From Nitratireductor sp. (GTDB lineage Bacteria > Pseudomonadota > Alphaproteobacteria > Rhizobiales > Rhizobiaceae), in assembly GCA_020441665.1 (NCBI GenBank), contig JAGRLT010000035.1:1-39518 (forward strand): DNA of 39,518 bases, read 5' to 3'. Made by a program: the position numbers and the translations under genes. Positions 12,177 to 14,798 of the stretch are shown in pieces; within the stretch, counting starts at the first letter, position 1; each line of letters opens with the position of its first letter. Under the pieces are notes generated by a model. It was not told the DNA's origin and did not search any database. It was given only the letters and a program-made list of their open reading frames with translations.

Positions 12177-14798
12177 ATGCTGAACACCATGCCGCACGCC
12201 CACGCAATGGCCCCCTGCCGCAGCGCCGCCGATCTGCCTTCCGGCGGTAGCGGCCTTGCCGCGCGCGCCCTGCAGCAGCGCCAGGCCCGCTCGGCGCCGG
12301 ATTATTTCGACGGGCTCAATCCCGAGCAGCGCGACGCGGTGGAAACCCTGGACGGCCCGCTTCTGGTGCTTGCCGGCGCCGGCACCGGCAAGACCCGCGT
12401 TCTGACCACGCGTATTGCCCATATTCTGGCGAGCGGCAGGGCCTGGCCGTCGCAGATCCTCGCCGTCACCTTCACCAACAAGGCGGCGCGCGAGATGAAG
12501 GAGCGCATTTCGCGCTATGTCGGCGAGCAGGTCGAGGGCATGCCCTGGCTCGGAACCTTCCATTCGATCTGCGCCAGGATATTGCGCCGTCATGCCGAAC
12601 TGGTGGGCCTCAAATCCTCCTTCTCCATCCTCGATACCGACGACCAGATCCGGCTGCTGAAACAGTTGATCCGCGCCGAGGGCATAGACGACAAGCGCTG
12701 GCCCGCCCGCCTCTTCGCCGGCCAGATCGACCAGTGGAAGAACAAGGGGCTCTCGCCCGAGAAGATATCGGAGGGCGATGCGCGCTCCTTTGCCGATGGC
12801 CGGGGCAGGGCGCTCTACCAGCAGTATCAGGAGCGCCTGAAGGTGCTCAACGCGGTCGATTTCGGCGATCTGCTGGTCGAGTGCATCCGCCTGTTCCGCG
12901 AAAATCCGGACGTGCTCTCCGAATATCAGAACCGCTTCCGCTACATGCTGGTGGACGAATACCAGGACACCAACGTCGCGCAATATCTGTGGCTGCGACT
13001 GCTGGCGCAGCGGAAGTCTAGTTCGCTCGCGCGAGACGCTTTGCGTCCGCTCCGCGAGGGCGGCGCATCAGCGCCGGCCGCCTCCTCGGCGGCGGGAGGG
13101 GGCAAAGCGAGCGAAGAGCGAGCCGCGCAGCGCAGCGACATCGCCGAAGGCGATTTGGAGCGAGCGGATAAAACTATTCCCCCCAATATCTGCTGCGTGG
13201 GCGACGACGATCAGTCGATCTATGGCTGGCGCGGCGCCGAGGTCGACAACATCCTGCGGTTCGAGAAGGATTTCCCCGGCGCCAAGGTGATCCGGCTTGA
13301 GCGCAATTACCGCTCAACGGCCCACATTCTGGGCGCAGCGTCGCATCTGATCGCCCATAATGAGGGCCGGCTCGGCAAGACGCTCTTTACCGAGCAGGCC
13401 GATCCCGATGCCGCCCGGGTGCGGATCGCGGCCTGCTGGGATTCCGAGGAGGAGGCGCGCAATGTCGGCGAGGAAATCGAGCAGCTGCAGCGCGGCGGCC
13501 ATGCCCTCAACGACATGGCGATCCTGGTGCGTGCCTCCTTCCAGATGCGCGAGTTCGAGGACCGCTTCGTCACCCTCGGGCTCAACTACCGGGTGATCGG
13601 CGGTCCGCGCTTCTACGAGCGCATGGAGATCCGCGACGCGATGGCCTATTTCCGCGTCACCGTGCAGCCGGCCGATGATCTGGCCTTCGAGCGCATCATC
13701 AACACGCCGAAGCGCGGCATCGGCGAGGCGACCCTGCGCATCATTCACGACCATGCCCGAAAGCGCCGCATTCCGCTGACCGCCGCGGTGCGCGAACTGG
13801 TCGATTCGGAGGAGTTGAGATCCGGCGTGCGGGCGACCCTCGCCCATCTGATGGATGATTTTTCCCGCTGGTCGGGCCTGGTCGACGCCATGGTTCATAC
13901 CGAGCTTGCCGAGATGATCCTGGAGGAATCCGGCTATACCGAGATGTGGCAGAACGACCGCTCCGCAGAGGCGCCGGGGCGTCTCGACAACCTCAAGGAA
14001 CTGATCCGTTCCATGGAGGAGTTCGACAACCTTTCGGGCTTCCTCGAACACGTCTCGCTCGTCATGGACAGCGAGCAGAACGAGGCGCTCGACGCCGTCT
14101 CGCTGATGACGCTGCACTCGGCCAAGGGGCTGGAATTCGACACCGTCTTCCTGCCCGGCTGGGAGGAGGGCCTGTTTCCCCATCAGCGCGCGCTCGACGA
14201 GGGCGGCCGCTCGGGCCTCGAGGAGGAGCGGCGTCTTGCCTATGTCGGGATTACCCGCGCGCGCGAAAACTGCGTCATCCTGTTCACCTCCAACCGCCGC
14301 GTCCACGGCCTGTGGCAGAACTCGATCCCCTCGCGCTTCATCGACGAACTGCCGGAACCCCATGTGGAAATCGCCGAGACCGGCAACAGCTATGGCGGCT
14401 ATGGCTCGAACCGGGTCGGCGGCGGCTACGGCGCCTCGCGTTTCGATGCTTCCGAACCGTTCACCTCGACCTATGCATCGCCCGGCTGGCAGCGCGCCCA
14501 GCGCGGCAATCAGCACCGCGCGGCGGGCGCGAGCGGCGATCCGGTCAAGCGCAATTGGGGCTCGCGCTCGGGCGCCGGTGTCGCCGAAGGCCGGGGAACC
14601 CGCGGCCGCACCATCGATGGCGAGCTCATCGCTTCCTCGATCAATCAGGCTTCAGGCAATTTCTCGGTCGGCGACCGGGTCTTTCACCTGAAATTCGGCA
14701 ACGGCAACATCGCGGCCATCGACGGCAACAAGCTCACCATCGATTTCGACAAGGCCGGCCAGAAGAAAGTGCTCGACAGTTTCGTCGAGGCGGTCTGA
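12177..14798 (+). CDS. uvrD: ATP-dependent DNA helicase UvrD/PcrA with an in-frame insertion
   Basis: This 873-residue superfamily 1A helicase unwinds DNA 3'-5' in nucleotide excision and mismatch repair. Motifs in order are: DGLNPEQRDAV (Q motif), AGAGTGKT (66-73, Walker A), AVTFTNKAAREMKER (Ia), VDEYQDTN (II), CVGDDDQSIYGWRGA (III), RLERNYRST (IV), TLHSAKGLEFDTVFLPGWEEGLFPH (V) and RRLAYVGITRARE (VI). A glycine-rich linker (GGYGSNRVGGGYG) leads to a C-terminal Tudor-like domain (VGDRVFHLKFGNGNI onward). About 55 residues of low-complexity sequence (about 280-335) sit between motifs II and III where relatives have a short loop; the DNA there is a chain of palindromes. The frame is kept and every motif is intact, so the protein is probably active. 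No clear Shine-Dalgarno precedes the ATG at 12177; ATGs at 12189 and 12207 are alternatives. Confidence 0.94.
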   Translation: MLNTMPHAHAMAPCRSAADLPSGGSGLAARALQQRQARSAPDYFDGLNPEQRDAVETLDGPLLVLAGAGTGKTRVLTTRIAHILASGRAWPSQILAVTFTNKAAREMKERISRYVGEQVEGMPWLGTFHSICARILRRHAELVGLKSSFSILDTDDQIRLLKQLIRAEGIDDKRWPARLFAGQIDQWKNKGLSPEKISEGDARSFADGRGRALYQQYQERLKVLNAVDFGDLLVECIRLFRENPDVLSEYQNRFRYMLVDEYQDTNVAQYLWLRLLAQRKSSSLARDALRPLREGGASAPAASSAAGGGKASEERAAQRSDIAEGDLERADKTIPPNICCVGDDDQSIYGWRGAEVDNILRFEKDFPGAKVIRLERNYRSTAHILGAASHLIAHNEGRLGKTLFTEQADPDAARVRIAACWDSEEEARNVGEEIEQLQRGGHALNDMAILVRASFQMREFEDRFVTLGLNYRVIGGPRFYERMEIRDAMAYFRVTVQPADDLAFERIINTPKRGIGEATLRIIHDHARKRRIPLTAAVRELVDSEELRSGVRATLAHLMDDFSRWSGLVDAMVHTELAEMILEESGYTEMWQNDRSAEAPGRLDNLKELIRSMEEFDNLSGFLEHVSLVMDSEQNEALDAVSLMTLHSAKGLEFDTVFLPGWEEGLFPHQRALDEGGRSGLEEERRLAYVGITRARENCVILFTSNRRVHGLWQNSIPSRFIDELPEPHVEIAETGNSYGGYGSNRVGGGYGASRFDASEPFTSTYASPGWQRAQRGNQHRAAGASGDPVKRNWGSRSGAGVAEGRGTRGRTIDGELIASSINQASGNFSVGDRVFHLKFGNGNIAAIDGNKLTIDFDKAGQKKVLDSFVEAV
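13014..13181 (+). repeat. Palindrome-rich element inserted in frame in uvrD
   Basis: This stretch of about 168 bp encodes an Ala/Ser/Arg/Glu-rich segment absent from the usual UvrD motif II-III loop. It contains successive hairpins: 13035-13039 with 13043-13047, 13061-13066 with 13071-13076, 13077-13082 with 13088-13093, and 13141-13145 with 13149-13153. A longer-range pair, TTCGCTCGC at 13022-13030, matches GCGAGCGAA at 13107-13115. The length is close to a multiple of three and there is no stop in the coding frame. The structure recalls palindromic elements, such as the Rickettsia RPE class, that insert into genes and are translated. Exact ends were judged by eye, and no second copy was found in this window. 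Confidence 0.65.

Follow-up and report, generated by a model that had tools for sequence, protein, structure and literature searches.

Repetitive extragenic palindromes (REPs) are, as described in the parts of Di Nocera et al. (2013; PMC3733652) drawn on here, mostly extragenic and located downstream of coding regions. The same source reports intragenic REPs, many of them in replication and repair genes, and names the UvrD/REP helicase and uvrB. Two Xanthomonas recB genes carry different REPs at about the same site, and other genes of one functional category carry REPs at different sites. Its authors doubted chance as the cause of the many REP-tagged replication and repair genes, asked whether REP insertion in a repair protein is fortuitous or alters its activity, speculated on hypermutable or mutator microorganisms arising via REP-tagged repair genes, and left untagged REP families for study. 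Rickettsia palindromic elements (RPEs) are likewise found in frame inside conserved proteins; according to that source, their hosts include replication, repair and RNA-acting proteins, with R. conorii uvrB as one example. Here we describe an insert in the DNA helicase gene uvrD of Nitratireductor sp. (GenBank assembly GCA_020441665.1), contained in a stretch of 39,518 nucleotides (contig JAGRLT010000035.1, positions 1 to 39,518; the window). In-frame REPs in repair proteins, the UvrD/REP helicase among them, are already known from the published text cited above, and the main interest of this locus is that one permissive turn of UvrD is repeatedly used by different repeats. Searches of open-licence papers found none that describes this turn of UvrD or the sequences of the repeat units.

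A reading of the window made without database searches (the sequence-only reading) had placed a palindrome-rich element in frame between helicase motifs II and III of UvrD. This placement was confirmed, as the 873-residue frame is open and both motifs are intact (Table 1). The best matches of the protein in the PDB are E. coli UvrD (2IS1) and PcrA (1PJR). Between Q278 and N337 there are 58 residues, compared with 3–15 in the 26 short-loop relatives of the same family that were read, and the insert adds a net of about 51 residues relative to 7-residue loops such as RAKGEPQ. The claim that UvrD relatives have a short loop holds for these proteins, but many others carry other repeats at the same turn. 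The alignment of E. coli UvrD to the window protein is broken solely at residues 238/243, and the insert replaces a turn of about four residues (E. coli UvrD 239–242) at the distal end of the helix that comes after motif II. It is flanked by this helix (267–277) and by the strand before motif III (338–343). Going by the general RecA fold, the turn would lie away from the ATP site, and the earlier suggestion that the loop lies near that site is not supported. An AlphaFold2 model built with 41 sequences had a mean pLDDT of 78.5; the score was 90 or higher for 419 of the 873 residues and below 50 at residues 289–291, 295–311 and 313–331 of the insert.

The genome of the window (G000; 3.34 Mb in 173 contigs) was searched with the 168 bases of the insert, giving the self match and five partial copies, in genes (uvrB and glyS) and beside tRNA genes, as expected of the dispersed element that had been proposed. 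The copies show the insert to be a palindromic repeat that is dispersed in the genome, made up of two units in inverted orientation. Copies of unit A showed 81% identity in GlyS (the glycyl-tRNA synthetase beta subunit; contig C167) and in the same-genus genome G004, and 72%, with gaps, in UvrB (C106). Copies of unit B showed 87% identity in UvrB, 80% beside tRNA-Asn and 74% beside tRNA-Gly, lying 13 and 10 bases beyond the 3′ ends of these two tRNA genes, respectively. UvrB carries both units in frame close to its C terminus, and its tail (L222) also holds what we take to be repeat sequence of a third type (LGLDPRTQ, on the other strand). In GlyS, unit A lies in frame between the two Pfam domains. 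A second in-frame segment of GlyS has the same peptide end, GEATRVSA, and a weaker match (68% over 93 columns), and a further repeat copy lies at and past the stop codon. Because the GlyS copies lie at other places, in-frame copies are not special to UvrD. Elsewhere in the window, the insert families gave just weak, probably chance matches.

The in-frame GlyS copy is common to G000 and G004 (L002/L209; relatives L210 and L213), the genome G001 also has a segment at the place of the second, weaker one, and the GlyS proteins of G005 and G006 are without either. Split matches suggest further GlyS inserts at another place.

Among genomes of the same genus, G005 has a homologous insert in UvrD at the same place and in the same frame (unit A orthologue, 89%; unit B orthologue, 97%). 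G004, assembled as a single contig, retains the 3′ end of the insert alone, with a unit B remnant of 95% identity over 39 bases; this form could have arisen by deletion between GCGCAGCG repeats, but a single unit of greater age would fit as well. Since the insert is homologous in G005 and its 3′ end is present in G004, an assembly artefact is unlikely. G001 carries an unrelated repeat of the LVEG/LRQAQG type at the same turn. The inserts of G002 and G006 at this turn had no match elsewhere in the 14 genomes searched. The sequence-only reading had allowed for an ordinary loop, shared across the order and lacking other genomic copies; such a loop does not fit these data, as the genome holds other copies and conservation of the segment does not extend over the order.

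To describe how often this turn is used, 141 genomes drawn from the family were surveyed, and UvrD was found in 139. A short-loop query matched 76 of these proteins unsplit and 63 with a split at the loop, five of the splits being assigned from E-values and not from the matches listed. Loops were read for 58 of the 63 (leaving out G082, G094, G111, G113 and G165) and were 19 to 101 residues long; 47 were classed to repeat families and 11 as "other". The families F1, F2, F3, F4, F6 and F7, and the window composite W, whose units resemble F1, are our own labels, defined by peptide expressions. Different labels occurred within a single genus in g1, g58 and g63. When 14 loop inserts were joined as one query, at least 128 matches were obtained in 14 genomes, 14 of them self matches; matches beyond the insert's own locus were obtained for at least 8 of the 14, and matches elsewhere in the same genome for at least 6 (at most 23 candidates were scored per genome, and the counts are lower bounds). 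No matches were obtained in the same 14 genomes with the same letters reversed. The fraction of bases in hairpins was 0.230 in 50 repeat-classed loops, compared with 0.095 after shuffling (maximum 0.124), and 0.118 in the 12 "other" loops of the whole set, which is near chance (shuffled mean 0.076, maximum 0.131). Ordinary expansion of a low-complexity loop through slippage, in the absence of any repeat element, is compatible with the unclassed loops and their near-chance hairpin content. It is nevertheless extremely improbable as the explanation, in view of the copies of the window insert elsewhere, the empty reversed control and the hairpin excess of the repeat-classed loops.

The loops of 89 genomes were read in total; G122 gave none by expression, and G072, with its Walker motif off its stretch, was not aligned. 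In the 88 aligned UvrDs, including the reference G025 with its very short loop, core insertions of at least 8 residues occurred at a single site, the motif II–III turn, in 72 sequences (the core begins at the Walker motif and ends at the C-terminal linker). Insertions of at least 4 residues occurred at this turn in 84 sequences and at one other site in 5, each of 5 residues. Outside the core, the C-terminal linker is also expanded, by up to 55 residues. One midpoint-rooted FastTree phylogeny of the UvrD core columns, used without support values, comprised 87 genomes (one of the 88 was dropped for length). On it, by rough counts, F4, present in 12 genomes, required 11 changes (shuffled mean, 11.3), and the presence of any repeat family required 21. 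This scatter of several families at one turn would also be expected if the DNA of the turn (CTGCTGGCGCAG in the window, a small inverted repeat) were a preferred target, with recurrence arising from targeting and not from tolerance. Such directed insertion is improbable, as the GlyS copies lie at other places and one target rule is unlikely for different families with different units.

We hypothesize instead, with a probability of about 0.72, that repeat insertion is tolerated at one permissive turn of the UvrD motor, where it forms a flexible translated linker and where several palindromic families nest and replace one another. Two inverted units of an untagged, F1-related hairpin-chain repeat would have inserted into uvrD without a shift of frame, at the turn that joins the helix following motif II to the strand running toward motif III, and the insert would be translated as a flexible linker. 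UvrD may stay functional for the reason that nowhere else in the motor core are additional residues accepted. As the turn would be permissive, and an existing insert would enlarge the harmless target, several palindromic families could land, nest and replace one another there. We infer transposition-like spread, translation of the segment, its disorder in the cell and neutrality for UvrD activity.

The use of the turn was also examined in the 80 named UvrD loci listed, and the loop was read in 75 of them. Motif II–III spans of at least 48 residues were found in at least eight of the loci listed, seven in Hyphomicrobiales (L040, L041, L042, L044, L046, L075 and L080) and one in Streptomyces (L113). 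At the turn, repeats of CGTC type or other multi-copy repeats are present in the Bradyrhizobium-type loci L040, L041, L042 and L044; a query made from the inserts of L044 and L041 matched each of these four genomes 41 to 52 times. CGTC REPs are described in the text of PMC3733652 as having a CGTC (or TGTC, CCTC) tag, an 8–9-bp stem with AT residues first, a loop of 4–5 bases and mostly a CCA tail. By inspection, the inserts of L040, L042 and L044 contain CGTC-type units, with CGTC, a 9-bp stem starting ATTGCCGGG, a 5-base loop, the complementary stem and a CCA tail. Two loops of the survey recur among the named loci: G017 has a loop identical to the one in Rhizobium alarense (L046), and G016 a loop identical to the one in a named Rhizobiaceae metagenome-assembled genome (L080). 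On these identities, the surveyed family is probably Rhizobiaceae, taken broadly. The actinobacterial locus L113, UvrD of Streptomyces nanshensis, has a 58-residue span with a Glu/Gly-rich insert at the same turn.

A wider proposal is that this turn is a recurrent landing pad for palindromic repeats across the Hyphomicrobiales (F1, W, F2, F3, F4, F6 and F7 in one family, with CGTC-type and other repeats in Bradyrhizobium-type loci), with nesting and replacement, and with at least the window type kept by its hairpins and not by its amino acids. In this full form it is tentative, and we would sooner expect it to fail than to hold.

By inspection, the window insert and its copies do not resemble CGTC REPs, having no CGTC tag, stems of 5–6 bp and no CCA tail. 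GTAG REPs carry a GTAG tag and often lie near tyrosine transposase genes; inspection of the window insert showed no GTAG, and the single PF01797 gene of its genome, on contig C148, is not accompanied by an anchored unit. The window family differs from the intragenic REPs described in PMC3733652 in being without either tag, and in that several families share a single turn of UvrD. Compared with RPEs, which we liken to it by the description in the same text, the insert is a chain of short (5–6 bp) hairpins with swapped stems in a Rhizobiaceae-type host. The comparison with RPEs made in the sequence-only reading is apt as one of type and not of homology: a dispersed palindromic repeat is carried in frame in UvrD of another alphaproteobacterial lineage. 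The host protein is conserved and apparently working (an 873-residue open frame with a core pN/pS of about 0.10), and dispersed copies are found both in genes (UvrB, GlyS) and between them (tRNA-Asn, tRNA-Gly). Like miniature inverted-repeat transposable elements, which have terminal inverted repeats and a target-site duplication, the window repeat is short and dispersed, with inverted units; no target duplication was visible at its roughly placed ends, and no partner transposase was found beside the window insert.

The insert contains four hairpins with perfect stems of at least 5 bp, amounting to 23 bp, compared with means of 1.5 and 8.3 in dinucleotide shuffles. The hairpin number was matched in 26 of 1000 shuffles and the number of base pairs in 10 of 1000, and in no other 168-nt window of uvrD, of 88 compared, did the hairpin base pairs reach this number. 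The chain of short hairpins described earlier is thus present, and in excess of both shuffles and the rest of the gene. The 9-bp long-range pair described with it is present by inspection, but in the minimum-energy RNA fold of the + strand the left end of the insert pairs with its right end and not with the 9-bp partner. Counting against the claim, folding energies were unexceptional for the RNA of the whole insert on the + strand (z −1.77; 10 of 200 shuffles as good) and on the − strand (z −0.94; 36 of 200), and for the − strand DNA of positions 13020–13170 (z −1.17; 23 of 200). Global fold energy was accordingly rejected as proof of structure. A search with 4227 Rfam models gave no hit at the gathering score over the window and none at E ≤ 1 over 12950–13250.

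Copies of the repeat share the constant blocks CGCGNAGC and, mostly, GCGTGAGCG, and the hairpin between the blocks is rewritten. Its stem is GACGC/GCGTC here, and GTGGC/GCCAC, GCAGC/GCTGC, GATGC/GCATC, GCCGC/GCGGC or GTAGC/GCTAC in other copies. A test of the between-anchor stem was used because the arms vary too much for simple alignment (covariance model). In 22 distinct stretches, picked by anchors alone and leaving out L001, which duplicates the window, and L028, which was taken for a chance match, the mean best stem was 4.18 bp, compared with 2.77 bp after single-base shuffling (0 of 500 as high). A 5-bp stem was reached in 15 of the 22, with 8 different arms, and 7 fell below. When arms were re-paired between different stretches, 44 of 210 combinations also fit, because several stretches share arms. 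All 13 forward anchors in UvrD loops read in the same frame, which may reflect common descent. Counting units by the anchors CGCGNAGC...GCGYGAGCG proved weak, as a pattern of similar composition gives comparable numbers in many GC-rich genomes. The count stands out from the backward control in a few genomes, such as G053 (35 vs 5), G045 (20 vs 4) and G013 (18 vs 3); in G000 it is just 5 vs 2. G053 and G045, with 35 and 20 anchored-unit matches, belong to other families of the order.

Divergence between the G000 and G005 uvrD genes was computed over the stretch ending before the TAG stop of G005. At silent sites (pS) it was 0.54 in the core and 0.19 in the insert, and at replacement sites (pN) 0.05 and 0.13, giving pN/pS of about 0.10 and 0.67, respectively. 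The TAG stop, just past motif III in the G005 gene (L147, contig C86), is close to the end of a 3.7-kb contig and could be an assembly error. Of 41 pairs examined, 37 were repeat-bearing with alignable inserts, 3 mixed and 1 "other". In all 37, insert pN exceeded core pN, and protein-level constraint on the inserts is therefore weak. Insert pS was below core pS in 21 of the 37 (median ratio 0.84), so that low silent divergence is clear for G000/G005 and not general; silent-site conservation as a general property of the inserts is weakened accordingly.

These data bear on a different explanation, in which the hairpins are kept for a role in uvrD mRNA or DNA (translation pausing, mRNA stability or transcription) and the protein tolerates them. 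In its favor, none of 57 core windows of the G000/G005 pair had a silent divergence as low as that of the insert. Paired bases of this insert changed less (3 of 54) than unpaired ones (23 of 117; Fisher p 0.02), as they did in six repeat-bearing pairs pooled (24 of 249 vs 112 of 576; p 0.0005); a control pair with "other" inserts gave 13 of 44 and 17 of 70. Pairing is kept in the 15 rewritten stems noted above. It is unlikely that a conversion tract extends into the gene, since differences reappear no more than 15 nt upstream of the loop codons and no more than 3 nt downstream of them. We nonetheless consider a nucleic-acid role unlikely. The six pairs are a biased set, having been picked as similar by eye, and just 1 of their 20 changed base pairs is still Watson–Crick; insert pS is below core pS in just 21 of 37 pairs; and the insert is swapped or lost among related genomes.

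Several of these results count against simple tolerated insertion, our preferred explanation. The low silent divergence of the G000/G005 insert is unexpected under plain neutrality. The proposed mobility of the element is not matched by the usual marks: its ends are placed at about residues 280–336 and are not fixed to the base, and neither a target duplication nor an exact empty site was seen in a five-genome alignment. The two ends pair imperfectly in the fold. The Y1 transposase family (PF01797) was found in 1 of 14 genomes, as a single gene of G000 (L221, C148:2757-3083), and its 4.9-kb contig contains no anchored unit, so that no mobiliser is tied to the element and one of the REP-associated tyrosine transposase (RAYT) type was rejected. 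What stands of the mobile palindromic element is the dispersed repeat copy; its mobility is probable from the distribution of copies. The families are named by our own peptide expressions and not from a curated library. Finally, 6 of the 14 joined inserts (G002, G004, G006, G015, G016 and G017) had no match outside their own locus among the at most 23 candidates scored per genome, and part of the expanded loops may therefore be decayed elements or ordinary linkers.

The insert could also be adaptive, altering UvrD activity or partner binding, as the sequence-only reading had considered and in line with the speculation of Di Nocera et al. The doubt about chance expressed in PMC3733652 for REP-tagged repair genes, and the finding that UvrB is also hit in G000, would agree with this. 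We regard it as quite improbable, because the insert protein is weakly constrained and replaced within genera while the core is strongly conserved, and because a tRNA synthetase subunit is hit too.

Table 1. Features of the uvrD insert and its host gene (positions in the window).
Feature	Position	Strand	Basis
uvrD, DNA helicase II (UvrD/REP helicase), 873 aa, host of the insert	12177..14798	+	open reading frame; PF00580 and PF13361; PDB matches
Helicase motif II, DEYQDT, residues 260-265	12954..12971	+	sequence and alignment
Whole insert, extra codons 280-336	13014..13184 (about)	+	loop comparison; matches of relatives split near 280/336; low pLDDT (predicted local distance difference test)
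Unit A, reversed repeat unit, three hairpins and end TTCGCTCGCGCGAG	13022..13093	-	copies in GlyS, UvrB, G004 and G005
Left arm of 9-bp long-range pair, TTCGCTCGC	13022..13030		inspection
Hairpin GACGC-TTT-GCGTC	13035..13047		perfect-stem search
Hairpin CGGCGC-ATCA-GCGCCG	13061..13076		perfect-stem search
Hairpin GCCGCC-TCCTC-GGCGGC	13077..13093		perfect-stem search
Unit B, second repeat unit, forward, AAGCGAGCGAAGAGCGAGCC...hairpin...TTGGAGCGAG	13105..13164	+	copies in UvrB, beside tRNA-Asn and tRNA-Gly, in G004 and G005
Right arm of 9-bp long-range pair, GCGAGCGAA	13107..13115		inspection
Unit B hairpin ATCGCC-GAA-GGCGAT	13140..13154		perfect-stem search
Helicase motif III region, GDDDQSIYGW, residues 342-351	13200..13229	+	sequence and alignment

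Apart from uvrD, the window contains a CRISPR-like array at the start of the contig (35-467), with six copies of a repeat of about GCTTAGCAGTTCAGAAAATGCAGGCCAACCGCAAC at a constant 66-nt spacing and spacers of about 30 nt.

A single turn carrying different repeats in a large share of the family provides many natural replicates for the question raised by Di Nocera et al., and tolerance is the reading favored by the weak constraint on the inserts at the protein level. The turn marks a point at which a superfamily 1 helicase accommodates additional residues, and for annotators such segments are to be treated as repeats and not as conserved domains. If the landing-pad proposal were true, the REP tagging of repair genes would be a site-specific permissive or targeted process, and not the outcome of chance.

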